This document shows positions 20,821-47,199 of a stretch of 47,199 bases of DNA, one piece after another. Every line of letters begins with the position of its first letter. Position 1 is the stretch's first letter. The position numbers and the translations under genes are program-made. Origin of the DNA: a virus. The DNA is taken from positions 1 through 47,199 of the IMG/VR virus record IMGVR_UViG_3300025120_000101; one strand, 5' to 3'. The notes under the pieces are model-generated. The model worked only from the letters and a program-made list of their open reading frames with translations. It was not told the DNA's origin and made no database searches.

Positions 20821-21180
20821 TCAGTCCTCCTCTCTGCCGTCTTCTGCAGAGTAATTTACATCTTCAGCTTCTTCAAAAGCAGCATCCACTGTCTTTTCAG
20901 TATTAGCCATGATGTGTTCTTCAGTTAATAATAAATACCTACGTAAGTCTCTAATGTCATCGAGTAGACCAGCTTCGCCTTTATAGACTTCACCCGCCTC
21001 GAATACATCCCAACCATGCTTTTGTGCTTGGTGCTCGATTCTATCGAACTTACGTGCTAACATCATAAAAGCACCAACACCTCCACGACGTTTCCAAGAA
21101 TCGCCATACGACGTTTCGGCTCGTTTAAGAGCTTCTAAATCGTTTTGAGCAGACTCTTTCATATTTTCCCATTTACTCAT
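20821..21180 (-). CDS. Possible MazG-related (Nmad1/DUF1599-like) protein, 119 aa
   Basis: The pattern YGDSWKRRGGVGAFMMLARK followed by FDRIE and LLDDIRDLRRYLLLTEEHI resembles the K..dYG.sW...K..Ri...D.l.DL.nY layout I associate with DUF1599, a domain linked to nucleotide modification. The assignment is tentative. It is coupled to the ThyA-like gene (4-nt overlap) and carries AGAAAGGAGAAA, so it probably acts with the nucleotide genes. Confidence 0.55.
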   Translation of the reverse strand: MSKWENMKESAQNDLEALKRAETSYGDSWKRRGGVGAFMMLARKFDRIEHQAQKHGWDVFEAGEVYKGEAGLLDDIRDLRRYLLLTEEHIMANTEKTVDAAFEEAEDVNYSAEDGREED

Positions 21181-22220
21181 AAGTTTTCTCCTTTCTCCGC
21201 TTTATTAATATATGACTTTTCTCTCTTGCGGACCCAGTCAAGACAAGCCGTTCTCCAATCAGAAGCTTTTATTAAACCTATTCTGTCATAGGCTTCTTCA
21301 AAATTTTTCATTTTATATTCTTTATACACTTGTAACATAGGAACAGCTATATCAGCAAACGCAGGGTTTTCCCAACTGTCTGTAAAAGAGTCTATGTCCA
21401 TAGGATGTAGATTAAAAAATCTATTAAGTTCCCAATCTAACACGCTTGTGTCATGGAACAATAAGCTGGGTTTATAATCCTCTAGAGTATCATAAGGATT
21501 CTTTATATCTCTATAAGTGTATACGTCTATTTCCATACCTTTAACTTTGTCCCAAACATCGTTTAAATAGATATGAAAACTATCACTAACTTGTCTATAA
21601 ACACCTACTTCTACTCCTATAGCTGATGCCATGTACTCTTGTAATACTGACATATGTACTACGTTAGCACCATAAGCACCCCATAGCATGTCGTTAGACC
21701 TATTACATACTGTCATGTTTAATTTGTTATCTCGTATCTTAAAATAGATATTAGTATTACAAGGAACATCTTTACCTTGTTTATTTAAGTCGTGTGTTGC
21801 GTCCCACATCTGTAAAACAGCTCTTCTATCTTCAGGGTTTTGTTTTAACATTTTGACTATTATAGATAACTGGTCTTTTAAGAAATAATCTCTCCATCGC
21901 CAACCATAGGCACCCCATAGAGTCTCTCCATCATCTGAAAAATTTTCCATAGACTTAACAAAATAAGTTAATGGTTTAAGGTCTTTACGTCCCGCCAACA
22001 TCCAAAGGCTTTCTACAAAGTGGAAAAAAGGATTAGCATCTCTTTGTTTAATTAAACAAACTCTTTCACAGGGTTTCGTATAAACCGTTGTCACAGGCTC
22101 TAGAGCTTCGTATGTTGTACCATTACGGCTTTCTTGAACTCGATATGCTGTTTCATCTAAGAATAAATCAATTCCTAATAACATAGCATCATTTACATTC
22201 CGTGCATTAATTACTTTCAT
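21177..22220 (-). CDS. Divergent ThyA-family enzyme (thymidylate synthase or dUMP hydroxymethylase)
   Basis: The product of 347 aa keeps the ThyA scaffold: VESLWMLAG around E70, WGAYGWRWRDYF at about 101-112, DRRAVLQMW at 131, catalytic Cys154 in DVPCN, R174-S175 in NRSNDMLWG and the substrate Asn (about 186). It departs from canonical ThyA: the His after the catalytic Cys is Asn, the GGD.H.Y region reads SDSFHIY, and the C-terminal MAV-type tail is missing. dUMP/dCMP hydroxymethylases are ThyA relatives, so 5-hydroxymethyl-dUMP synthesis is a real alternative. The start at 22220 has AGGAGG upstream; a longer reading has no site. Confidence 0.85.
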   Translation of the reverse strand: MKVINARNVNDAMLLGIDLFLDETAYRVQESRNGTTYEALEPVTTVYTKPCERVCLIKQRDANPFFHFVESLWMLAGRKDLKPLTYFVKSMENFSDDGETLWGAYGWRWRDYFLKDQLSIIVKMLKQNPEDRRAVLQMWDATHDLNKQGKDVPCNTNIYFKIRDNKLNMTVCNRSNDMLWGAYGANVVHMSVLQEYMASAIGVEVGVYRQVSDSFHIYLNDVWDKVKGMEIDVYTYRDIKNPYDTLEDYKPSLLFHDTSVLDWELNRFFNLHPMDIDSFTDSWENPAFADIAVPMLQVYKEYKMKNFEEAYDRIGLIKASDWRTACLDWVRKREKSYINKAEKGENL

Positions 22221-22306
22221 TTTTTCCTCCTTGATAGCTTGTCTGCGGTTCTTTGAAAAGACCATTCTAAAAACTTACCTAATAAATCACTAAAATATTT
22301 TGTCAT
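22217..22306 (-). CDS. Coupled micro-gene, 29 aa
   Basis: ATG at 22304-22306 opens a frame whose TGA overlaps the ThyA-like start as ATGA; its last codons contain that gene's AGGAGG site. The product is basic at its C-terminus (DKLSRRKK) with an amphipathic N-terminal helix (MTKYFSDLLGKFLEW). It lacks a strong ribosome site of its own, so it may be a leader peptide. Confidence 0.42.
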   Translation of the reverse strand: MTKYFSDLLGKFLEWSFQRTADKLSRRKK

Positions 22307-22313
22307 CTTTTTT

Positions 22314-22535
22314 CTACAAAGTTTCACGATAGCCGTCTATTATTTCGCCTATCAAGAAGATTATTTCTTCATTCATAAGTCCTGGAAGTTTCCTTTTTAT
22401 AAAAGCCACTGCCATTTCTTGTGTCGCAGGAACTTTTAAAAAGAACGCCACTTCTAAAAACTGAGTGTAATGTATATCGACTGAATCTCCCCAGTCTTCT
22501 AAAAGCTGAACTGAGTAGTCATTAACTTTTCCCAT
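22314..22535 (-). CDS. Small hypothetical protein, 73 aa
   Basis: An alpha-helical small protein (VQLLEDWGDSVDIHYTQFLE) with AAGGAG before the ATG and a 14-nt overlap with the upstream gene. It sits inside the putative thymine-modification group. No family is recognised. Confidence 0.7.
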   Translation of the reverse strand: MGKVNDYSVQLLEDWGDSVDIHYTQFLEVAFFLKVPATQEMAVAFIKRKLPGLMNEEIIFLIGEIIDGYRETL

Positions 22536-23454
22536 ATTTACTTTCTCCTTCTATTAAGTCTTCTACTATAGGAAGACTGTTTTGTTTATATATAGACCTT
22601 GTTCTGCCTTCTCCTTTAAGTATCCTAGAATACTTATCAAACTCACAAAGTCCTCCTTCTATATCCCGTAGTTCATACAATCTATCGTTCCGCATTGCTA
22701 TATGCGGTGGCAGTTTACGAATAACTATTTCATATAAGTCCTGCATTTCTGTATTCCAATCATGACTACGTCTACAATAGTCTAAAGGTCTGCCTGTTAA
22801 TCTGTTGAGTCCTCTCATGGCTCCTGGACCTGCATTAGCCCAAGTCATAATATCCTCAGCCTCATCAAGTATGTAGGTGTGCCTTAAATCAGTAATTACT
22901 TCATAAGCCATAAATGGACCCATGTACGGATACTCTCTTAACATAAGCCAAGCTTTTTCTAAAGAGCTTTCTCCTTCACTTTTATCAAACTCTAGTTTTT
23001 TAATTAACCAAGTCTTTTCTTCCCAAATATTATTAATACAGTCAACAACCCCTGTGACTTTATCCATACCGTTTGGTGTTTTAATAATATAAGAACCAGT
23101 AATCCATTGAGGCTGTGCTTTTATTAGTTCTATTGCTTTGTCTCCATCCCAATTAACTAATAAATCGTTTTCTAATAAAGTTCTTCCTGTCGGTATAAAA
23201 TTAAACCAACGAAAGATAATAGTAGCTAATATAACGTCTGCACTGTTTCCTAAAGGCTCTCTAATATGGTTTCTGAACCACCTAGTAGTCCTATCATCTT
23301 CTCTAAATACTTGACAAAACTTAAACTCTTGCAGTATAGGGTCATCCGTCCACGGAGCAGGAAGTTTGTATTCTTCCTTTCTGACCCTAATACTTTCCCT
23401 TTCTGTTTGCCAGTAGCAAAAAAGGTCTAGTTGTTCTGCAAGAAAATCAGTCAT
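22522..23454 (-). CDS. 5-hmdU DNA kinase helical-domain / aGPT-pyrophosphorylase family protein
   Basis: The 310-aa protein matches the helical domain described in 5-hydroxymethyl-dU DNA kinases and alpha-glutamyl/putrescinyl-thymine pyrophosphorylases: FREDDRTTRWFRNHI (50-64), FRWFNFIPTGRTL (81-93), GPFMAYEVITDL (179-190) and GPGAMRGLNRLTG (209-221). These enzymes act on thymine bases carrying a hydroxymethyl group in DNA. No separate P-loop kinase domain is attached. The neighbouring ThyA relative could supply the hydroxymethylated precursor. The family call is from remembered motifs; the precise reaction is inferred. Confidence 0.72.
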   Translation of the reverse strand: MTDFLAEQLDLFCYWQTERESIRVRKEEYKLPAPWTDDPILQEFKFCQVFREDDRTTRWFRNHIREPLGNSADVILATIIFRWFNFIPTGRTLLENDLLVNWDGDKAIELIKAQPQWITGSYIIKTPNGMDKVTGVVDCINNIWEEKTWLIKKLEFDKSEGESSLEKAWLMLREYPYMGPFMAYEVITDLRHTYILDEAEDIMTWANAGPGAMRGLNRLTGRPLDYCRRSHDWNTEMQDLYEIVIRKLPPHIAMRNDRLYELRDIEGGLCEFDKYSRILKGEGRTRSIYKQNSLPIVEDLIEGESKYGKS

Positions 23455-24858: not shown

Positions 24859-26355
24859 TTATAGCTGATAGTGGCGTGGCGATTTAGGCTCAATCAGGTA
24901 TAGGTTCTCTTTTGTTCTCGTTATACCAACATAAAACACCCTGTTTTCATCATCAGGGTTTTGTTGATAGTTTTTGTATACTCTAGTTGTTATATCTGTT
25001 AACAACACTACGTTGGTAGCTTCGCCACCTTTAGCAGCATGTATAGTAGACAATCGTATACGTGGTTGTTTAGTTATCTTTTCTCCTCTACGTAACATAG
25101 CTCTTATGTAACTAATTTCACTAGGACTCAGTAGAGTAAAAACGTCATACCAATGACCATCAGGTAAATCAGGGAAGTGGCTTTTTAAATCTTGGTACTG
25201 TAGAGTTAAGTTAGCGTCTAACATGTCTAATTTCTTAGGTTTTTCTACTTTTACAAACTTTAATATGTTAGCACACTCATTCAAGGTAACTCCTTCTCCC
25301 TTGCTTAGACGTTCCCAGAAAATTACAGCCCTAACTTTAGCTTCTGATATACTCGGTCTGCCTTTCACTTCAAAGAACCATCCTTCGTTCCTACAATACT
25401 CATCAACATCTTCTAAAAGGTAATTAGTTCTAGCTAAGACCAACCAGTCTCCTTCTTCCATGTTTACTAACTCTATATTTGGTTCCCATCGAACTAATCC
25501 TTCTTCTTTTCTAGGAGTCCATTCTTTATATATTCTTGAACGAACTTGACCTATACACTGTTTAGCTATCTCATGAACAGCAGAAGGTACACGATATGAT
25601 TGTTTCAACACCATGGCGTTTTTAGAATTCTTTATCAAGTAATCAACATCAGCACCCGCCCATTTATAAATAGCTTGGTCGTCATCTCCTGCTACATATA
25701 TCTTTTTAGCTTTTTCTGCAACTTTTCGAACTACCGCCCACTGTAGAGGAGATAGGTCTTGTGCTTCGTCTACGAACATAACATCTAAAGAAGGTACATC
25801 GCCTTCATGCAAAAACTTATAAAGCATGTCGGTGTAATCAACTAACAACCTGTCTTCTTTAAACAACTGTAATCCTCTAGCGAATCGTTCTAACTCAAAC
25901 CAACCTACAGCGTCTTCGACTTCATGCCATTGTTGTTCTAAAGGTATATTACGCATACGAGCAAGGTTTTCTATAAAAGCTAACCTATCGTCATGGGTCA
26001 TGCCAAATATATGACCATCATCTGATGTTGTTCTTCCTGTTAATCGTAAGTTTAGTTTTTCGTTTAGGTCTTTTATATCTGTGTGACTGACTACGCTCTC
26101 TCTTGTTAAACCTAGTTGCCTAAACGCTAAAGAGTGTAATGTTCTAAAAAACGGTAAATCTTTTTCACTAATATTGAACTTAGCTACTGCCCTTTGTTTA
26201 CCTTCTGTTACTGCTTTTTTAGTAAAAGTAAAGAAACCAATACTTTCGGGTTGTGTGCCGTTTTGCAATTCGTCTTCTATAAGACTAAGTAGAGTGCTTG
26301 TTTTTCCTGTTCCAGGAGGTCCAAGAATAACTTGTGTATGGCTCGGTAGGGTCAC
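24859..26355 (-). CDS. UvrD/Rep-like superfamily 1 DNA helicase
   Basis: All SF1 motifs are present in 498 aa: Walker A GPPGTGKT (12-19), FTFTKKAV (motif Ia), DEAQD (196-200), GDDDQAIYKW (223-232), LKQSYRVP (motif IV), STIHAAKGGEATNVVL (V) and YVGITRTKENLYL (VI). The protein is shorter than host UvrD, as in phage helicases. It should unwind DNA during replication or recombination. It overlaps the AlkB-type gene by 4 nt. Confidence 0.93.
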   Translation of the reverse strand: MTLPSHTQVILGPPGTGKTSTLLSLIEDELQNGTQPESIGFFTFTKKAVTEGKQRAVAKFNISEKDLPFFRTLHSLAFRQLGLTRESVVSHTDIKDLNEKLNLRLTGRTTSDDGHIFGMTHDDRLAFIENLARMRNIPLEQQWHEVEDAVGWFELERFARGLQLFKEDRLLVDYTDMLYKFLHEGDVPSLDVMFVDEAQDLSPLQWAVVRKVAEKAKKIYVAGDDDQAIYKWAGADVDYLIKNSKNAMVLKQSYRVPSAVHEIAKQCIGQVRSRIYKEWTPRKEEGLVRWEPNIELVNMEEGDWLVLARTNYLLEDVDEYCRNEGWFFEVKGRPSISEAKVRAVIFWERLSKGEGVTLNECANILKFVKVEKPKKLDMLDANLTLQYQDLKSHFPDLPDGHWYDVFTLLSPSEISYIRAMLRRGEKITKQPRIRLSTIHAAKGGEATNVVLLTDITTRVYKNYQQNPDDENRVFYVGITRTKENLYLIEPKSPRHYQL

Positions 26356-26936
26356 AAACCACTCCTAAAAGTTAAATTAATTCTTTCACCTGCTCTTTCT
26401 AAACTAGGTACAGCATGAGTAGAAGTCATTTGATTATGACCATCAAAAATAAGTACGTCACCGTGTTCAAGAATATAATGTTTTTCATCTATTATAAAGT
26501 TCTCTATTTCAGTTTCTATTTCACTGGTATCTGTACGTTTCTTTACATTGTTTTGATAAGTACGTTGTACAAAAACTCTTGGTGCTCCTAAAGAAATAGA
26601 GACAACTATGTCATCTAATGTAGGAACAGTGTCTGAGTGATGAGGGATACCTTTTCCGTCTACCCCGTAGTAACCACATAAACAAAAAGTAAACTGTTTA
26701 TCAACACCTAATTCTTCCCAAACCAAACGTTCTGCTTCTTGTTTAATTTGATACATTGCATGAGTCCATGGGTCTGGTTTGTAGAGTTTACCTGCATAAT
26801 CAAAAGAAGAACTTCCGAATCCTTTTGTAGGTCTACCCTTCACCATAGAGCCTTTAAACTCTCGTTCTTTAGGTTCATCCCATTCATGTATGTCTGGGTC
26901 TGTGTGTTTAAAATATTTCTTAATATATATTATCAT
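26352..26936 (-). CDS. AlkB-type 2-oxoglutarate/Fe(II) dioxygenase
   Basis: In 194 aa the iron ligands are seen as H100-x-D102 (PHHSD) and H174 (STHAVP), and the 2-oxoglutarate/substrate signature is RINLTFR (185-191), an exact RxNxTxR match. AlkB enzymes repair N-methylated bases; a DNA-modifying role is an alternative given the nearby thymine-modification genes. It is translationally coupled to both neighbours by 4-nt overlaps. Confidence 0.9.
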   Translation of the reverse strand: MIIYIKKYFKHTDPDIHEWDEPKEREFKGSMVKGRPTKGFGSSSFDYAGKLYKPDPWTHAMYQIKQEAERLVWEELGVDKQFTFCLCGYYGVDGKGIPHHSDTVPTLDDIVVSISLGAPRVFVQRTYQNNVKKRTDTSEIETEIENFIIDEKHYILEHGDVLIFDGHNQMTSTHAVPSLERAGERINLTFRSGL

Positions 26937-38996: not shown

Positions 38997-41036
38997 TCAT
39001 CTGTTGTATAGTCCAGGAATTCCAGGATTAGTAAAACCAGGAGGAGTGTATCCAGGAGTTCCAGGTTGTGTTACAGGCGGTGTTACAGGAGTACCTATCT
39101 GAGGAGTTTGTAATCCTGGTCCTATTCCACCTGCTGCTGGAGTATATCCACTATACTGACCAGCAGGAGAACCACCTGCGTATCCATAACCACCCGCCAT
39201 AGGTCCAAGAGAAGCAGTGAGTGCTCCAACGTTTTGTAACGTCTGCATAGGTAAGTTGTATTGACCTGTGAAGTTTTGGTAGTTTAAATCCATTAGAGAT
39301 TGTTGTCTGCCTCTACCTAGTCCGCCCATACCCATTTGTGATTGAATATCTTGCTGCTGTAGTTGTGGTAATAAACTAGCCATACCGCCGTATTGACCAC
39401 CAAAACCACTTAATGCACCTGCTGTTTGTTGACCTAACCCTGCTAATCCTTGACCACCTTGTAGCCCCATACCGAACTGTTGTTGACCTAAAGCACCTAG
39501 TTGTGAACCTTGTTGTAGCTGATTACCAAATCGTTGTTGGTCTATATTAGAAACTTGTTGTCCTTGTTGTAACTGATTACCAAATCTCTGTTGGTCTAGT
39601 CCTGATAGTTGTTGTCCTTGTTGTAGTGTATTACCAAATCTTTGTTGGTCTAGTTGGTTTAATCCTTGACCTCTTTGCATTTGATTGTCTATTGCTGCTT
39701 GTTCTGAAGCATTTAACGCTTGACCTGTGTTTAATTTAGCTTGTGCTTGTTGTGCTTCAAAACTACCTAGTTGTGATGCTCTAGCTAATTGATTTTGAGC
39801 TTCAGTAGTAGAAAGGTCTCCAAACTGTCTTCCTCTAGCTAGTGCAGAAGAAGCTTCTTGACCTGCTAGTCCTGCTTCTTGACCCGCTAAATTTCCTAAT
39901 TGTGAAGCCCTACCTAATGCTGTTTGTGCTTCTTGACCTGCAAAACCACCCAACTGACCTGCTAATCCTGATTGTAATCCTGCAAGACCTGCTTGTCTTC
40001 CTTGTTGTGCTTCAAAAGCTTGTTGTGCTCTGTTTGCGGCATCTTGATAACCACCACTACGTATAGCTCCTACTTGTTCTGCTGCTCCTCTTGCTACATT
40101 TTCTGCTAACTCATCACGTCTCATTCTAGACCTAGAACCACCGAAAGCTCCTGCACTAACAGCTTGGTCTCTAAGACCCATATCGCTTTTAGCTAATCCT
40201 TCTCTAACATCTTTCATAGTCTGTTCAACTACTTGATCTTCAAAAGGATTATAGAAACTAGATATTCCACTAGGGTCAAAACCACGTGCAGAACCGTAAC
40301 CTGTTTGTTCTGCCCTACTTAAAGCTCCTCTTGCCTGACCAAATTCAGGTCTAGCCCCAGCGACTTCTGACCTAGCTCCTGCAAAACCTGCTCTAGCACC
40401 ACCGAATTGTGGTCTAGCTGCTGCTGTTTCAGTTCTAGCTAAGTCTAGATTAGGTGCTCCCGCTCTAGTTAATTGTTGAGCTTCACTAAATCCAGGAACT
40501 CCTCCTTGAAGATAATCCCTACCTGATTGACCAAATCTAGCTCCTTCTATAAGACCCCTACCTGATTGATTCTGTTGAGCCCCCGCAACCATGTCTCTGC
40601 CTGCCATGTTTTGTTGAGCCCCAAGTATCATATTTCTACCTGTGGTATCAAATTGAGCGTCTTGTGTTAGTCCTGCTCCTAAACTAGATAATCCTCTACC
40701 TTGTCCAAGACCCATAGAAATTTCGTCTTGTCCTCTAGCTAATGCTCCTCTAGAAATACCTGCTGCTTCGTCTAGTAAACCTTGTTGTGCACCTAAATAC
40801 GGTCTATAGCTACCAATCGCTTGATCAGCAAGTTCCATACCATAAAGTTCTCTAGGGTCAAAATCAGCTACCCTTTGTCCTGTGTATGTAAACGGACTTG
40901 AATCAGCCTGACCTAAGTTTTGAAACTGTTGTTGTAAAAACTGTTGTGCAAACGGGAATATATCCTGTTGTAAAAACTGCCCTATATACGGGGCGGGGGC
41001 TTGACTGGAATATTCTTGTTCTTCTCTAGACGCCAT
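38997..41036 (-). CDS. Gln/Gly-repeat virion protein, 679 aa
   Basis: Contains about four tandem 18-residue repeats (LxxLDQQRFGNxLQQGxQ) around residues 445-520, encoded at about 39470-39690, plus shorter RARFAGAR-like and GLAGQ-like repeats before and after them. The N-terminal 100 residues contain QFLQQDIFPFAQQFLQQQFQ. This is a repetitive rod or collar type protein, probably part of the virion. It overlaps the next upstream gene by 11 nt. Confidence 0.75.
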   Translation of the reverse strand: MASREEQEYSSQAPAPYIGQFLQQDIFPFAQQFLQQQFQNLGQADSSPFTYTGQRVADFDPRELYGMELADQAIGSYRPYLGAQQGLLDEAAGISRGALARGQDEISMGLGQGRGLSSLGAGLTQDAQFDTTGRNMILGAQQNMAGRDMVAGAQQNQSGRGLIEGARFGQSGRDYLQGGVPGFSEAQQLTRAGAPNLDLARTETAAARPQFGGARAGFAGARSEVAGARPEFGQARGALSRAEQTGYGSARGFDPSGISSFYNPFEDQVVEQTMKDVREGLAKSDMGLRDQAVSAGAFGGSRSRMRRDELAENVARGAAEQVGAIRSGGYQDAANRAQQAFEAQQGRQAGLAGLQSGLAGQLGGFAGQEAQTALGRASQLGNLAGQEAGLAGQEASSALARGRQFGDLSTTEAQNQLARASQLGSFEAQQAQAKLNTGQALNASEQAAIDNQMQRGQGLNQLDQQRFGNTLQQGQQLSGLDQQRFGNQLQQGQQVSNIDQQRFGNQLQQGSQLGALGQQQFGMGLQGGQGLAGLGQQTAGALSGFGGQYGGMASLLPQLQQQDIQSQMGMGGLGRGRQQSLMDLNYQNFTGQYNLPMQTLQNVGALTASLGPMAGGYGYAGGSPAGQYSGYTPAAGGIGPGLQTPQIGTPVTPPVTQPGTPGYTPPGFTNPGIPGLYNR

Positions 41037-42009
41037 ATCTCTTATTTCCCATTTCGTTAAATTTGTTTAAATTAGCAATACCTTTAGCATGACTTCCTCC
41101 ACCTGCTGCATCAACTGCTGCTTTAGAAAGCATGTACTCTCCGTTACTAGCCATTACAGGTATTAAATCATCTTTAGGACCCCCTGGACCGTACATAGCA
41201 CCACCACTAGGCATGAACATAGGTCTTTTTAATGCTGAACCTTCGTTAGCAAAAGTTACACTAGAGCCACCTATAGGATTCATTTTTAATGCAGAACGTC
41301 TTCTGTTTGAATTTCCAGGAAGTGTTTCAGTTCTAACCATACTTCCTTTACGTTTATCATCGTCACCGAATAATCTTTGAAATAAAGCTGTACCTATACT
41401 TCCTAACCCGCTTGTCATAGCATCAGCTACTACAGGGTCTTGATTATCTATATAGTTTTCCATCTTTTGTAAACCCGTTAAAGGATTTTCAGGCATAGGA
41501 ACTTCAGGCATATCTATGTCCATACCCGCAAACATTTGTTCTTCTAATAAATCTTCAGGTTTTGGTGCTTCTATTTCAGAAAAATCTACTTCTAATACGT
41601 CTGAAGTCATTTCGGGTTTATCTTCAGGAATAAAACCTTGTTCTTTTAACAACTCCATAAGACCTAAGTTACCACCGTTGGCTCTGTTTAAATAACCACC
41701 AACAGCCATCCCTGCGACACCGTATTGGTCTAAATCACTAACATCAATACCTGCTTGTTCTAGTTGTGCTAGTATCATTTCTTGTTGACCATCTTCAGGG
41801 GACGTTAAATTCTCAAATTGAAAATCTCCAAACTCTTGAACTTGGCTTCCTGCAACAGGATTAATAGCCATTTCAGGTCCAGGACTTAATGAAGGAGAAG
41901 TACCGCTACCGATTTGTGCAGGCATATCAGGGTCACCAGCAATTTTTCTACTGATTAAATTTGTTCCTACCCCAACCGCTATGGCTGTCGCTATCGTTCC
42001 TAAACTCAT
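41026..42009 (-). CDS. Virion-type protein with IPVMASNGEYMLS motif, 327 aa
   Basis: N-terminal hydrophobic Gly/Ala segment (MSLGTIATAIAVGVGTNLIS), acidic middle with many Pro/Glu, and near the C-terminus DDLIPVMASNGEYMLSKAAV followed by a Gly-rich linker, a phrase found in phage tail and internal proteins (D.IPA.LS.GEYV). It is coupled to the cupin-like gene by a 4-nt overlap. Exact function unknown. Confidence 0.75.
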   Translation of the reverse strand: MSLGTIATAIAVGVGTNLISRKIAGDPDMPAQIGSGTSPSLSPGPEMAINPVAGSQVQEFGDFQFENLTSPEDGQQEMILAQLEQAGIDVSDLDQYGVAGMAVGGYLNRANGGNLGLMELLKEQGFIPEDKPEMTSDVLEVDFSEIEAPKPEDLLEEQMFAGMDIDMPEVPMPENPLTGLQKMENYIDNQDPVVADAMTSGLGSIGTALFQRLFGDDDKRKGSMVRTETLPGNSNRRRSALKMNPIGGSSVTFANEGSALKRPMFMPSGGAMYGPGGPKDDLIPVMASNGEYMLSKAAVDAAGGGSHAKGIANLNKFNEMGNKRYGV

Positions 42010-42554
42010 GTTAAATCCTCTATGATTTTATCTATTTGTTTTACATCGAAACCTTTTAAGTTTAGTTTAGAAAAATCATCAACGGTTATTTCGTTTACAA
42101 CGTCATCAATATTTAAACAATCTGTTCTATGTACTGTTATAAATGTACATTCTTCGTGTATATATAAAACTCTTTTTGTACCTGCTTCAGTTATTCCATG
42201 AAAAGGTGCTTTTATACGCTCTACACCTTTATCACTATAAATAGATGCTTCGCCTTTCATAATAAAGAAAGGATGGTTTTTAGAATGTATTTTAGTTGAA
42301 ACTAGTAAATTTTTAGGCATAACTATTTGTCTTATATACTGACCATCTGCAAAGTTATGCGTAACAGCTCCTTCCGTCTGACCTGTTATTTGGCTGTTTA
42401 AATCTTGATTATTGTTTTCTTCGCAATGTTTAGTAATAGCTGCTTCAAACTCTTTTATTTTATTTTGAAATTTTATTTTGTTTTCTTTATAATCAAAAAA
42501 CTCACAAGCTTCTTGATAAGATAGTTCGGGATTCTTAACTAATTCAGTATTCAC
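42006..42554 (-). CDS. Small cupin-like protein, 182 aa
   Basis: Begins with GTG and an AGGAG site. The middle (about 72-150) has a cupin-like beta order: GQYIRQIVMPKNLLVSTKIH, NHPFFIMKGEASIYS, then APFHGITEAGTKRVLYI. It has the H...H pattern but not a complete metal triad, so the fold is probable and the activity is not. It lies between the 35-aa micro-gene and the virion genes. Confidence 0.65.
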   Translation of the reverse strand: MNTELVKNPELSYQEACEFFDYKENKIKFQNKIKEFEAAITKHCEENNNQDLNSQITGQTEGAVTHNFADGQYIRQIVMPKNLLVSTKIHSKNHPFFIMKGEASIYSDKGVERIKAPFHGITEAGTKRVLYIHEECTFITVHRTDCLNIDDVVNEITVDDFSKLNLKGFDVKQIDKIIEDLT

Positions 42555-42661
42555 TAGAAGCGGCTCCTAGTTTTCTGTTTCTTTCCTTTAGACGTGTAGA
42601 TATAGAAGTCAGAACGACTTCCTTTTTTCTTCAGGTATGCCTTTTTATCTACTCCAGTCAT
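42554..42661 (-). CDS. Small basic protein, 35 aa
   Basis: MTGVDKKAYLKKKGSRSDFY then a Lys/Arg-rich tail. The ATG has GGAG 7 nt upstream, and its TAG overlaps the GTG start of the cupin-like gene, good support for translation. Strongly basic; nucleic-acid binding is possible. The 85 nt between it and the cyclase stop hold short hairpins (CGTGT-AA-ACACG) but no clear terminator. Confidence 0.6.
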   Translation of the reverse strand: MTGVDKKAYLKKKGSRSDFYIYTSKGKKQKTRSRF

Positions 42662-42746
42662 TGGTTCTCCAGCGTGTTTACACGTATTTGCGAGTTAAAG
42701 CTCACCCCGTAAGCTGCAGCACAATAGCTGATACATTGATTATATA

Positions 42747-44480
42747 TCAAAAAGTGTATATTTTTAAAGGTTTTTCTTTACCTTTTACTTTTATTGGTTT
42801 TAGTTCTTTTAAGTGTAAGCCGCAATACTTTTCTGTTTCTTCACCTATAAGTATATTTACACCCGCTTCTTTAGTAGCTGATTCTAATCTAGCTGCTGTA
42901 TTTACCGCGTCTCCGATAGCAGAATAATCAAACCTAGTATCGCTACCCATGTTGCCTATAACAGCTTCACCCGTATTTACGCCTACTCCGATAGCTACAC
43001 CAATATTCGCTTTTATAATATTTTCTTGTATTTCTTTAGCACACTTTACAGCTAATTCTTCATGATGTTTTAAGTCCATAGGTGCATTAAAGATAGCCAT
43101 CATCGCGTCTCCTATAAATTTATCAACCATTCCTCCTCGTTTTTGTACACACTCTACTTGTACTGTTAATGCTTTATTCATTATTTCAGTAACGTCTTCA
43201 GGAGGTAACGTTTCAGACAACGCAGTAAATCCCCTGACGTCAGTAAACAAGAAAGTACATCGTCTTTTTTCTCCTCCTAGTTTTAACAAATCAGGTTCTT
43301 TTTGTAAACGTTTGACTTGTCTAGGGTCTAGGTAATGTTCGAATTGTTTTTTGATTTGTTGTCTTAATTTATATTGTTCTCTAAACCTTAAATAGAAAGC
43401 TAAAGCTCCTGAGATAAACTGAGAAATCAAAGACCAAGTAACATCTATCAAAACACCTGTAGTTATTGTGTAGTAACCGTAGTAACCCGTTAAAGCCATC
43501 GTAAGTAAAGCTAAGCTAACGCCCCAAGTTATACCTAAATAGCTTATAAAAGCCCATACGAGCCCTACAGAAGCTATAAAAATTAGAAGTTCTAAAGCTA
43601 AAGAATAATCGGGTATGTAAGGACTGTTTTGTATAAGTATTGATTCTGCAAGAGCTGCTTGTATTTTATGTGGTTCTAATAAACCAACAGGTGTAGCGAT
43701 TTGAGGCATTACGCCATTAGCAGTAACACCTACGAATACAAACTTACCGTTGACTTCCATTTCCTGTAAGTTTGTTTGTGGTGTGTCTACCCAACTAATC
43801 CATTTACGACCAAGACTATCTGTTTTAACAGGAGGAATACCACGAATAGCTATTTCTTGTAAACCGTTGTCGTTAGTGGTGATGATGTATGTTTTAACAC
43901 CGAACAGTGCTTTGTATATTTGTGTACCAAAAGAAGCTACCCAACCTTCAGGAGTTCTTAACAACAAAGGAACACGTCTAACTAGTTGGTCTACTTCGGT
44001 GGGAGCACTGGCGATTCCTTGTAATATGTTTTCGTAGGCGTAGAAATTTTCCTTGACTCCCGTTGTAAGTATACCTCCAATATCCTCACCTTTTATAACT
44101 GTTCCTGTAGTTTTTGGGTATTGACCACTATTAGTTTCAAACATAGCTAGGACACTAGGAGCATAACCTAAAGACCTAGCAAAGTCTTCATCACCCATAA
44201 GTCTATCAGGTTGTGGGAAACTTATAACCCAACCAACACCAAGAGCTCCTTTGCCTAGTATCTCTAATTGTATGTCAGATAATCTTTTTCTGGGTAGTGG
44301 GTAACCACCTTCACGTTCAACGTCTTCTTCAGTTATATTAAGAATAACAAAACTACCAGAAGGTTGTTGTTCTTGTATAAAAGTATCGAATACTTTTAGT
44401 TTAAGTATTTCTGTAGGTGTTGTTTGAAATATTAAAGGTAATACTAATATTACTAATAAAGGTATTATTAATTTTTTCAT
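42747..44480 (-). CDS. CHASE2-domain transmembrane adenylate cyclase
   Basis: The 577-aa protein has an N-terminal membrane segment (4-20), a periplasmic CHASE2 sensor domain (about 23-290), three transmembrane helices (about 292-363) and a class III nucleotidyl cyclase domain (about 405-577). Catalytic residues are present: D414 (LFTDVRGFT), D458 in DKFIGDAM with K454 as the adenine-selective Lys, D524 as the second purine-selective residue (AIGDAVN), and N527/R531 for the transition state. It should make cAMP from ATP. The ATG overlaps the FecR stop as TAATG. FecR-CHASE2 cyclase pairs occur in bacteria; a phage copy is unusual. Confidence 0.93.
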   Translation of the reverse strand: MKKLIIPLLVILVLPLIFQTTPTEILKLKVFDTFIQEQQPSGSFVILNITEEDVEREGGYPLPRKRLSDIQLEILGKGALGVGWVISFPQPDRLMGDEDFARSLGYAPSVLAMFETNSGQYPKTTGTVIKGEDIGGILTTGVKENFYAYENILQGIASAPTEVDQLVRRVPLLLRTPEGWVASFGTQIYKALFGVKTYIITTNDNGLQEIAIRGIPPVKTDSLGRKWISWVDTPQTNLQEMEVNGKFVFVGVTANGVMPQIATPVGLLEPHKIQAALAESILIQNSPYIPDYSLALELLIFIASVGLVWAFISYLGITWGVSLALLTMALTGYYGYYTITTGVLIDVTWSLISQFISGALAFYLRFREQYKLRQQIKKQFEHYLDPRQVKRLQKEPDLLKLGGEKRRCTFLFTDVRGFTALSETLPPEDVTEIMNKALTVQVECVQKRGGMVDKFIGDAMMAIFNAPMDLKHHEELAVKCAKEIQENIIKANIGVAIGVGVNTGEAVIGNMGSDTRFDYSAIGDAVNTAARLESATKEAGVNILIGEETEKYCGLHLKELKPIKVKGKEKPLKIYTF

Positions 44481-45598
44481 TAATCATTTTGCGTAATAGT
44501 AATAGTGCTATCACTTCCTCCGTTCACCTTGATTATATTAGATACTCCGTCTTGTATCAAAATTACTGTATAAGCATTACTGCCGTTTAAATCAACCCTA
44601 ACAGTTTCGTTTACTTGTCTTCGTAAACTTACAACGTTTCCTGTTATTAAAGCGGTTATTTGTGTGTCTGGGTCTTTACCTAAAAGAGTTCCTGATATTT
44701 GCGTACTAGTTGCTTGTGCTAATTGGTCTTCTTCTTCAGCTATTGCTAACGCATCTAATACATTAAGAAGGTCTTCAAGATAATTTACATCCAGGAAGTT
44801 AATATCTAGTTCTGTAAATTCAAGTTCATCCTCACCTAAATAATCTACGTCTAAGTAATCTATATCTAGTTCATTAAAATCTAAAATACTTTCTTGTTTA
44901 GTTGATATATTTTCAGCATAGGTTGTCTTTTCTTCTTTAGGAGGAGTAACAATTAACATATTATCGATAAGGTCTAACGTTAAATCTAGTATTACAGGTT
45001 TACTAGGAGCAGATTCAAACACACTAACTGTTGTAGCTTCGTAAGGTTTGTTTAATAATACAGTACCCATAGCTGTAACTACTTCTATTTCTCCGCTAGA
45101 CAAACCTAAAGCATCAGGTAAGAGTATTATAAGGCTACGACCTAGTTCATCAACAGTCGCTGTAAAATCAGTTCCACGAATTGCAATGTTAGCTGTAGGA
45201 GTTTTAAGTGTGATGTTTTGTTTATCTATACGGTTTAAATTACCTGTAATAAATCTCGCAGTTCCTAAACCAAAAGTAAGAGCCATTTTAGCTTTACTAG
45301 GGTCAGGGTCATAGATGTATTCGTCTATTAAGAGTTGTGAGTGTTCGGTAAGCTTTACTGTTGAGTCATCTAAAAAAGTAATAGCCATTCTACCGTTTGT
45401 AGTTATAGCTTCATCGTTGCTTTGAATAGCAAACTTTAAGTTAGCGTCGTATGGTTTGTCTCTTAGTATTTGTGCTGAACCGTTTAGTTCAGATATGTCC
45501 CCAATATCAGCAGCTTGTGCTAGTACCTTGGTCGTTTTGAACGACACAAACAGTAGAAGAAGCATTACCACCAATAGATATGATTTTGAGCCAGTCAT
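44480..45598 (-). CDS. Secreted FecR-domain protein
   Basis: Signal peptide 1-28 (hydrophobic VVMLLLLFVSF, cleavage near AQA-A), then a FecR domain at about 33-160: GDISELNGSAQILRD, ITTNGRMAITFLDDSTVKL and TPTANIAIRGTDFTA, the last a very typical FecR signature. An acidic repeat follows at about 239-282 (ELDIDYLDVDYLG...ELDINFLDVNYLE). The C-terminus (about 335-372) has curlin-like phrases ending in SDSTITITQND. It is probably periplasmic and partner of the cyclase. It overlaps the curlin-like gene by 92 nt if started at 45598, or 59 nt if at the ATG at 45565. Confidence 0.88.
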   Translation of the reverse strand: MTGSKSYLLVVMLLLLFVSFKTTKVLAQAADIGDISELNGSAQILRDKPYDANLKFAIQSNDEAITTNGRMAITFLDDSTVKLTEHSQLLIDEYIYDPDPSKAKMALTFGLGTARFITGNLNRIDKQNITLKTPTANIAIRGTDFTATVDELGRSLIILLPDALGLSSGEIEVVTAMGTVLLNKPYEATTVSVFESAPSKPVILDLTLDLIDNMLIVTPPKEEKTTYAENISTKQESILDFNELDIDYLDVDYLGEDELEFTELDINFLDVNYLEDLLNVLDALAIAEEEDQLAQATSTQISGTLLGKDPDTQITALITGNVVSLRRQVNETVRVDLNGSNAYTVILIQDGVSNIIKVNGGSDSTITITQND

Positions 45599-46241
45599 TG
45601 TCTTGGGTACTCAGTTGTTGAATATTGAATGTTCTTTGTCCGCCTGTGTGGTCTAAATAAAAGTAACCACCTGCTGAAGCATTAACACCTGTACCAGTAT
45701 ACGTTACTGTATTATCAGAACCATCTATGTCCATATAATTAGTTGCACCGTCAATATTTATATTAGAAGTAACTGTGTTATTAGACCCTTGAATAATCCA
45801 GTCTAAATCTAAAGTAGCTGCTAGTGCAGTAGTTCCTTGGTTTAACGTGAAAGTGTTTCCGCTACCTGTAACGGCTACGTTTTGATTAGAGTTATCAGCT
45901 CCGTAAGTATTACTTGGGTCTACTTGTATTGAGAAAGTATTAGTGCCGCCAGTGAATTGATAAAACCCAGTAAAACTGTCTGCGGTAATATCTCCTAAGA
46001 ATTTATTAGTAGCACCTATCATATTGATATCTAACGTCATACTTGTGCCGTCTAAATCAAAAGCAGTTAAACTTCCTGCAGAAGAACCTAAACCACCTAT
46101 AATGTTAGATATACCTAGTTGTTCAAGGTCTATATTCGCCCCTGTTCCCGACTGGTCTACGTATATCTCGTTGTCTGCCGCATAAGCAAACGGAAATAAA
46201 GCAAGACATAGCAAAAGATGTATGCACTTCTTCATCATCAT
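45507..46241 (-). CDS. Secreted curlin-like repeat protein
   Basis: The 244-aa product has a signal peptide (1-21, FPFAYA-A). The mature part begins NEIYVDQSGTGANIDLEQLG, close to the Q-G-N repeat style of curlin subunits, and continues with Asn/Gly/Thr-rich beta repeats (GSGNTFTLNQG, GSNNTVTSNINI, GSDNTVTYTG, FNIQQL) like a beta-solenoid amyloid. The end contains two Cys. Amyloid export through CsgG is inferred from the neighbouring genes. Three ATG codons stand in tandem at the start, 4 nt after the csgG stop. Confidence 0.72.
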   Translation of the reverse strand: MMMKKCIHLLLCLALFPFAYAADNEIYVDQSGTGANIDLEQLGISNIIGGLGSSAGSLTAFDLDGTSMTLDINMIGATNKFLGDITADSFTGFYQFTGGTNTFSIQVDPSNTYGADNSNQNVAVTGSGNTFTLNQGTTALAATLDLDWIIQGSNNTVTSNINIDGATNYMDIDGSDNTVTYTGTGVNASAGGYFYLDHTGGQRTFNIQQLSTQDNDWLKIISIGGNASSTVCVVQNDQGTSTSC

Positions 46242-46245
46242 AATC

Positions 46246-47082
46246 TCATTCTACCTCCTTTTCTTCTGTTTGTAAAACCCAATACTTTTTAGCGTACCCT
46301 TGTTTTATTATTTCTAGTACCCCACCTTCGATAGCTTTCATTAATGCTATGGTAGAAGATTCGTTTCTAGCGTTACCTAACTCTATTTCTACAAGTTCTG
46401 TACCCATCTCTATAAACCGAAACACATCTTCTGATTTACCATAACTAAATATAGTTTTTTGACTTAATACTTCTAGCAATACCTCACCCGTAGCTACAGA
46501 AACCATACGAAGACTAACAGTTATATTGTCTTCTCTGTATTGGATACTATTGCCTATACCTAAGTACCTTGCACCTGCACCACCAGACTCTAAATTAGCT
46601 TCGTAAGAAATAACAGCACCTTCAATTAAAATACCTGCGAACAATAAAGGAGATAACTGTTTTTTCTTTTCTTCCTCACTAGCAAAAGCATCTCTAGCAG
46701 AACGTATAAGTTGTCTTTCTTTAGTTAAGTTATCAAGACCAACTCTTTCTACAACTCTAAAAAACTCACCATTGCCTGCATGTTTTAATGCTCGTATTAA
46801 TAGTGCGTTTGGTTGTTGTGTTATGGCTGTACTAAATAAAGCAAACTCACTGTTGCTTTTACGTTGTCCTGTTTGGTCGGTAAATGCTGTGGGGTATACA
46901 GCAACCACAGGACTTACTTCTGGTACTTCTATATCACGTAAATAAGGGGATTGTAATTCCTGAATAGAAACTACGTTATGTGCTTTAAACCTATGTTCGT
47001 ACGTATCTTCATATTGGTCAAGTATTGAACAGCTAGAACAAAAAAGTACCAATAGGAATCGTAATCTCAGTAACTGTTCCAT
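46246..47082 (-). CDS. csgG: Curli secretion channel CsgG homologue
   Basis: At 278 aa it matches CsgG length. The N-terminus is a lipoprotein signal with Cys candidates at 15-18 (LFCSSCS). The core matches E. coli CsgG closely: VAVYPTAFTDQTGQRKSNSE, FSTAITQQPNALLIRALK, VVERVGLDNLTKERQLIRSA, GARYLGIGNSIQYREDNITV and SYGKSEDVFRFIEMG. In E. coli the protein forms a nonameric outer-membrane pore. The constriction region here reads KSNSEFALFSTA, so the Tyr51/Asn55 positions differ while the Phe is kept. Its ATG lies inside csgF. Confidence 0.95.
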   Translation of the reverse strand: MEQLLRLRFLLVLFCSSCSILDQYEDTYEHRFKAHNVVSIQELQSPYLRDIEVPEVSPVVAVYPTAFTDQTGQRKSNSEFALFSTAITQQPNALLIRALKHAGNGEFFRVVERVGLDNLTKERQLIRSARDAFASEEEKKKQLSPLLFAGILIEGAVISYEANLESGGAGARYLGIGNSIQYREDNITVSLRMVSVATGEVLLEVLSQKTIFSYGKSEDVFRFIEMGTELVEIELGNARNESSTIALMKAIEGGVLEIIKQGYAKKYWVLQTEEKEVE

Positions 47083-47199
47083 CCGCTTCCGTTATCTTTA
47101 GTGTTAATGTTACACCATCACTTGTATACTCAATGGTGTTTCCTTCCAAGGTTATTGTACCTGAATCAGAGGGTGTTTCGCCAAAGAGGTTGTTGACTA
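47033..47199 (-). CDS. csgF: C-terminal part of a CsgF homologue (runs off right edge)
   Basis: The last 55 codons read VNNLFGETPSDSGTITLEGN...IEYTSDGVTLTLK, ending TIPIGTFLF. This resembles the CsgF C-terminus, where an (L)L.N...G....V....Y.V.I....G.L.L.V.D..TG..T.I.V segment follows. CsgF caps and stabilises the CsgG pore in E. coli. It overlaps csgG by 50 nt and precedes it, the csgF-csgG order of bacterial curli operons. The 5' part is outside the window. Confidence 0.72.
   Translation of the reverse strand, partial: VNNLFGETPSDSGTITLEGNTIEYTSDGVTLTLKITEADGTVTEITIPIGTFLF

Follow-up and report, generated by a model that had tools for sequence, protein, structure and literature searches.

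The window analysed here is the entire 47,199-base IMG/VR virus record IMGVR_UViG_3300025120_000101. At one end of it, five minus-strand genes form a compact cassette encoding the curli secretion proteins CsgF and CsgG, a curlin-like protein, a FecR-domain protein, and a membrane CHASE2-adenylate cyclase (Table 1). A preliminary description made from the sequence alone had read five co-oriented, tightly packed genes as one operon, and all five open reading frames (ORFs) are indeed present: csgF and csgG overlap by 50 nt, a 4-nt gap separates csgG from the curlin-like gene, which overlaps the FecR gene by 92 nt, and the FecR and cyclase genes overlap by 1 nt. The identities it gave to them also hold, with strong Pfam and PHROGs matches for csgG, FecR, CHASE2, and the cyclase, a weak match for csgF, which is cut by the window end, and recognition of the curlin-like protein at the level of its family.

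Table 1. Genes of the curli-FecR-cyclase cassette (positions in the window)
Gene product	Position	Strand	Supporting matches
CsgF, C-terminal 54 codons; 5' part beyond window end	47033..47199	-	Pfam CsgF 5e-4, phrog_35372 2e-11
CsgG, curli secretion pore lipoprotein, 278 aa	46246..47082	-	PF03783 1.7e-45, phrog_20175 4.6e-63
Curlin-like beta-repeat protein, signal peptide, 244 aa, single copy	45507..46241	-	family-level Curlin_rpt, AlphaFold, BFVD
FecR-domain protein, signal peptide, 372 aa	44480..45598	-	PF04773 2.1e-9, phrog_37870 1e-70
Membrane CHASE2-class III adenylate cyclase, 577 aa	42747..44480	-	PF05226 5.6e-23, PF00211 1.2e-19

The five-gene order is conserved in other viral contigs, and the phage isolates HTVC008M and Melnitz carry the module. 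We compared 194 distinct loci, located on viral contigs and on mis-binned contigs of metagenome-assembled genomes (MAGs); because they were chosen for the resemblance of their csgG to that of the window or of HTVC008M, the rates describe that clade. Among loci with room on the contig, csgF lies ahead of csgG in 170 of 170, csgG is followed by the curlin and FecR genes in all 127, and a cyclase gene comes after FecR in 73 of 75, although the proteins diverge to about 35% identity. Even the spacing recurs, since the 50-nt csgF/csgG overlap (110 of 183 related loci) and the 92-nt curlin/FecR overlap (89 of 143) are each the commonest value.

The cassette encodes two components of curli (type VIII) secretion, the CsgG pore lipoprotein and CsgF. 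The full-length CsgG with lipobox that had been proposed is borne out by its profile match and by a CSSC motif, which aligns with LSSC in relatives. Because only 54 amino acids of CsgF remain in the window, its Pfam score falls below the cut-off; the intact CsgF of a near-identical contig (L007) matches the family at 2e-17, and full-length homologues in L005-L009 span 176-192 amino acids. The phage CsgF proteins (L007:7566-8144 and relatives) have a basic N-terminal extension ahead of the hydrophobic signal segment, in which an AT-hook-like RGRP motif occurs in several copies and is absent from others.

Every locus with room for it includes a gene of the curlin family, whose product is a candidate substrate for the pore. 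Curlin_rpt matches 13 of 18 diverse members of the phage curlin-like family (best 1.2e-6), and the AlphaFold model of the window protein (predicted local distance difference test score, pLDDT, 80; predicted template modelling score, pTM, 0.79) has a predicted beta-repeat fold whose BFVD matches are other viral models named "Curlin associated." Many pelagimyophages encode two copies rather than one. In some of these, the second curlin combines its curlin repeats with a PA14 (GLEYA-like) domain of carbohydrate-binding type (L207:10011-11342, L214:7570-8874); such a fusion is a possible fibre-tip adhesin.

The window FecR protein has a hydrophobic signal-type N-terminus, a FecR domain from residue 66 that is the only domain found by Pfam, an acidic Leu/Asp repeat region, and a C-terminal stretch of ~40 amino acids with a curlin-like Gln-ladder pattern. 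In an alignment of the last 40 residues, Y343, Q349, I366, I368, and Q370 are invariant in all 27 diverged sequences. Curlin-type strands occur 1.57 times per protein in this tail versus 0.12 in shuffles (13-fold), and a tail profile compared with curlin N-termini outscored 150 of 150 column shuffles, scoring best for the tail region of the protein. These patterns are suggestive of a curlin-like tail, with homology to curlin unproven. We also considered whether the protein could be a FecIRA iron-citrate regulator. It has no cytoplasmic anti-sigma part, and none of the other four cassette genes encodes a sigma factor or TonB receptor. From its predicted architecture, the phage "FecR" is a secreted FecR-domain protein and not an iron anti-sigma factor.

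In the cyclase, the metal-binding D414 and D458, the adenine-contacting K454 and S520, and the transition-state residues N527 and R531 are intact, with positions assigned by analogy with known cyclases. The metal, lysine, and transition-state positions are kept in 63-64 of 64 homologues, and position 520 is Ser or Thr in 63 of 64. Among solved structures in the PDB, its closest relatives belong to the adenylate cyclases (best 6fht, 1.9e-30), and the window enzyme should make cyclic AMP (cAMP). In the Melnitz copy (L003), the conserved transition-state Asn is replaced by Ser (VSTAARIE), so this enzyme may differ in activity.

The cassette sits within a phage genome. Its downstream neighbors had been described as virion genes, and a tail-fibre family gene (42006-42554) and a "DNA ejection" match in PHROGs (internal virion proteins; 38997-41036) agree with this. 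The rest of the window encodes portal, terminase, DNA polymerase, helicases, primase, thymidylate synthase, and a 5-hydroxymethyldeoxyuridine (5-hmdU) DNA kinase family protein. Its TerL is 57% identical to that of 023Pt_psg01 and 52-54% to those of HTVC023P and HTVC027P, with DSL-LC04 also among the best matches, and its primase is 37% identical to that of 023Pt_psg01. Judged by these matches, the window phage is a relative of the HTVC023P-type pelagiphages (podophage type). By extension from these relatives, SAR11 is the presumed host.

The window terminates inside csgF, as a contig would that had been joined wrongly or had a stray host segment at its edge. The border beyond is visible in L007, a 47-kb contig whose CsgG is 99% identical to that of the window. 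There the order before csgF is tail fibre, lysozyme-like ORF, basic proteins, nuclease-like ORF, 116-amino-acid membrane protein, and 67-amino-acid ORF (names are our own reading of the sequences), so that phage genes flank the cassette on both sides. In 16 loci, the cyclase and relatives of the downstream virion genes share one contig. Because independent contigs thus carry the cassette amid phage genes, we exclude a chimera, giving an assembly artifact or stray segment practically no chance, in line with the earlier view that this is not host DNA at an edge. In the window and L007, the cassette stands before tail and internal virion genes, and in five other podophage loci it is upstream of terminase (L064, L071, L037, L039, L048); it therefore occupies at least two genome positions, which suggests more than one insertion, or a move, among podophages.

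The preliminary description had held that csgF and csgG were not known together with a curlin-like subunit and a FecR/cyclase pair. This is refuted by earlier work: csgF and csgG were reported by Zaragoza-Solas 2020 (PMC7029224), and Wittmers et al. 2022 (PMC9599517) described the full module of type VIII secretion, FecR, and cyclase genes in HTVC023P-type podophages and pelagimyophages, together with its expression in ocean metatranscriptomes. The module itself has thus been known since 2022, and the window copy adds a further member. What we add is that its cAMP has no receptor that we could find, that its FecR is not, by its features, an iron anti-sigma factor, and a check that FecR-CHASE2 units lie apart from bacterial csg genes.

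The window agrees with the HTVC023P-type module of Wittmers et al., in which the cyclase often follows FecR, in phage type and in its csgF-csgG-curlin-FecR-cyclase order. That study places a histidine kinase always upstream, a position beyond the window end. Just upstream in L007 are the nuclease-like ORF, 116-amino-acid membrane protein, and 67-amino-acid ORF; no kinase domain was matched in the membrane ORF, the only upstream ORF scanned. It also reads the module FecR as an iron regulator, a label that the features described above do not support. The HTVC008M and Melnitz myophage modules share the order csgF-csgG-curlin-FecR-(second curlin)-cyclase, but differ from the window in the second curlin between FecR and cyclase, in the PA14 domain of some relatives, and in CsgG and cyclase sequences only 30-47% identical to those of the window. 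Alphaproteobacterial csg operons resemble the phage arrangement in that csgF adjoins csgG with curlin repeats nearby, but in the six csgF-bearing genomes examined no phage-like FecR match lies within about 8 kb of csg, and CHASE2 genes occur elsewhere in the genome.

That FecR-CHASE2 pairs exist in bacteria had been asserted, and SAR11 chromosomes, another alphaproteobacterium, and published clusters all provide examples. Apart from two phage-type contigs, CHASE2 genes occur in 24 of 148 SAR11-family genomes (about one sixth). The one scanned encodes a CHASE2-SpoIIE phosphatase, and the products of 16 more loci are related to it along almost their whole length. A FecR gene adjoins it in 12 of these 16 loci and in L140 and L151, with a tetratricopeptide repeat (TPR) protein between in some; this chromosomal set (L140, L151, L310-L325) is possibly an envelope-sensing system. 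In an alphaproteobacterium (L152), three successive genes encode FecR, a TPR/SlipAM (Slam-type) protein, and a CHASE2-cyclase. Published FecR-CHASE2 clusters include those of Campylobacterota (PMC9239204) and a Burkholderia biofilm operon (BiofilmReg; PMC5192318), and FecR lies near the CHASE2 cyclase CyaD1 of S. meliloti (PMC5498481). In the bacterial clusters, as in the phage module, the gene for the FecR-domain protein neighbors that for a CHASE2 receptor, whose cytoplasmic output domain varies among cyclase, kinase, and SpoIIE phosphatase. Unlike the phage module, they are not joined to curli genes, and where a third partner was seen, it is a TPR or TPR/SlipAM protein, not CsgG. The phage module appears to combine a curli exporter with a FecR-CHASE2 sensing unit that is found in other company in bacteria.

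Starting from what is directly seen (gene content, order and conservation, intact catalytic residues, and intact pore genes), we read the cassette as a system for curlin-like fibre export with FecR-CHASE2 feedback to cAMP, to which we assign a probability of roughly 0.55. CsgG, an outer-membrane lipoprotein pore, and CsgF would export the curlin-like protein during infection, and this may form a beta-rich fibre on the infected cell; a phage-made fibre is plausible from the genes present. The FecR-domain protein would reach the periplasm, where its tail may touch curlin subunits or the export site, and could then signal to CHASE2, the periplasmic part of the inner-membrane cyclase, partner and direction both being inferred. 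Such a signal would raise cAMP. The FecR-CHASE2 pairing makes a coupling of envelope state to cAMP plausible, although the sensing step taken by itself is tentative, and we would bet against it at present. More doubtful still is a stricter version in which FecR is a periplasmic amyloid sensor whose tail docks on curlin or the nascent fibre and controls the cyclase, giving a foreign fibre-export-to-cAMP circuit in a host without a class III cyclase or CRP. The benefit of the fibre is most likely altered cell-surface contact, either by making potential hosts aggregate or by keeping rival phages out.

Several results weigh against fibre export with feedback to cAMP. The window curlin-like protein taken alone reaches only E=0.11 for Curlin_rpt, so that its proposed identity stands for the family and is weak for this copy, and a PDB search with its model gave no significant match (the CsgA fibril 8enq only at E=5.9). 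Pfam Curlin_rpt matches none of the FecR tails, hhalign gives only 17-27% probability for tail versus curlin, and the FecR AlphaFold model (pLDDT 45) is unusable. In S. meliloti, the FecR gene smc02177 is dispensable for plant-signal perception (PMC5498481), and Melnitz infections produced no clumping by cytometry or transmission electron microscopy (Buchholz et al., PMC9004378). Finally, a search restricted to the cyclic nucleotide (cNMP)-binding domain found no CRP-type cAMP receptor in the 148 SAR11-family genomes and no such domain in 15 phage records, several of them fragments. The same search finds the domain over the cut-off in 88 of 114 Alphaproteobacteria. It is present in 10 of the 148 genomes: in one 245-amino-acid protein, whose N-terminal cysteines led us to read it as FNR-type, and in nine large proteins, of which the representatives read were an 863-amino-acid acyltransferase/GDSL protein and a 995-amino-acid ABC-transporter-type protein. 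With neither a CRP-type receptor in the genomes nor the domain in the phage records, the phage cAMP is without a known reader; it probably does not act via a host CRP, and a non-CRP reader is possible in the nine genomes with large cNMP-domain proteins.

The same absence bears on the idea that the cyclase is the main effector, with cAMP or nucleotide depletion acting on host physiology or countering defence and the fibre genes serving only as trigger. Retention of the cyclase in nearly all modules with its catalytic residues intact is consistent with this, as is the finding that none of the 148 SAR11-family genomes has a class III cyclase of its own (the two that encode one do so on phage-type contigs carrying the same csg-FecR-cyclase module); with no CRP-type receptor found in those genomes and no cNMP-binding domain in the phage records, we consider this unlikely. 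Buchholz 2022 (PMC9004378) discussed the CsgG pore as a lysis regulator, in which case CsgG/CsgF would have been turned into a pore that times lysis (pinholin- or secretin-like), with the rest as passengers or regulators. The structurally diverged phage CsgF, the lack of clumping in culture, and the position of the L007 cassette behind genes for a lysozyme-like protein and a small membrane protein are compatible with such a role. However, its premise of missing curlin genes fails, given the curlin gene in every locus with room and the two annotated in Melnitz, and FecR and the cyclase are left unexplained, making this account decidedly unlikely. The suggestion of Zaragoza-Solas 2020 and Wittmers 2022 that an open outer-membrane pore imports nutrients or cofactors in infection appears more improbable again: in its favor, phage modules reportedly lack the periplasmic gate CsgE (PMC9599517), but import needs no CsgF, curlin, or cyclase, and the iron argument depends on the name FecR, which is attached here to a protein without FecIRA regulator features.

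SAR11 and its phages dominate the surface ocean. If phages do drive export of an amyloid-like fibre there, cell contact, aggregation, and recombination would be altered in a planktonic population. The questions are sharpened to which protein reads phage cAMP in a presumed host family that lacks CRP, and whether FecR senses an outer-membrane exporter via CHASE2.

No Rfam families or tRNAs were found in the window, and promoter-like sites in the cassette region are no more frequent than chance. A small basic ORF of ~35 codons lies on the minus strand between the cyclase and tail-fibre genes (42560-42665). Genes of the thymidylate synthase, 5-hmdU DNA kinase, and "alkylated DNA repair" families (21177-22265, 22522-23454, and 26352-26936) are likely a DNA hypermodification set.

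To look for a bacterial operon that could have donated all five genes, genome contigs were scanned. The csg genes in each of the seven loci recovered are of phage type, and we took these loci to be phage contigs; one of them (L091) is clearly phage, with terminase and portal present. Pelagiphage-type curli contigs have been binned into Maricaulis, Marinimicrobiota, Flavobacteriaceae, Rhodobacteraceae, and Pelagibacter MAGs (L085-L091, L137), so that csg or cyclase genes would be wrongly ascribed to these taxa. A 1.5-kb low-coverage wastewater contig labelled Salmonella phage S.Kent 1-2-1 (L004, OR851715.1) encodes a CsgG 42% identical to that of the window phage.

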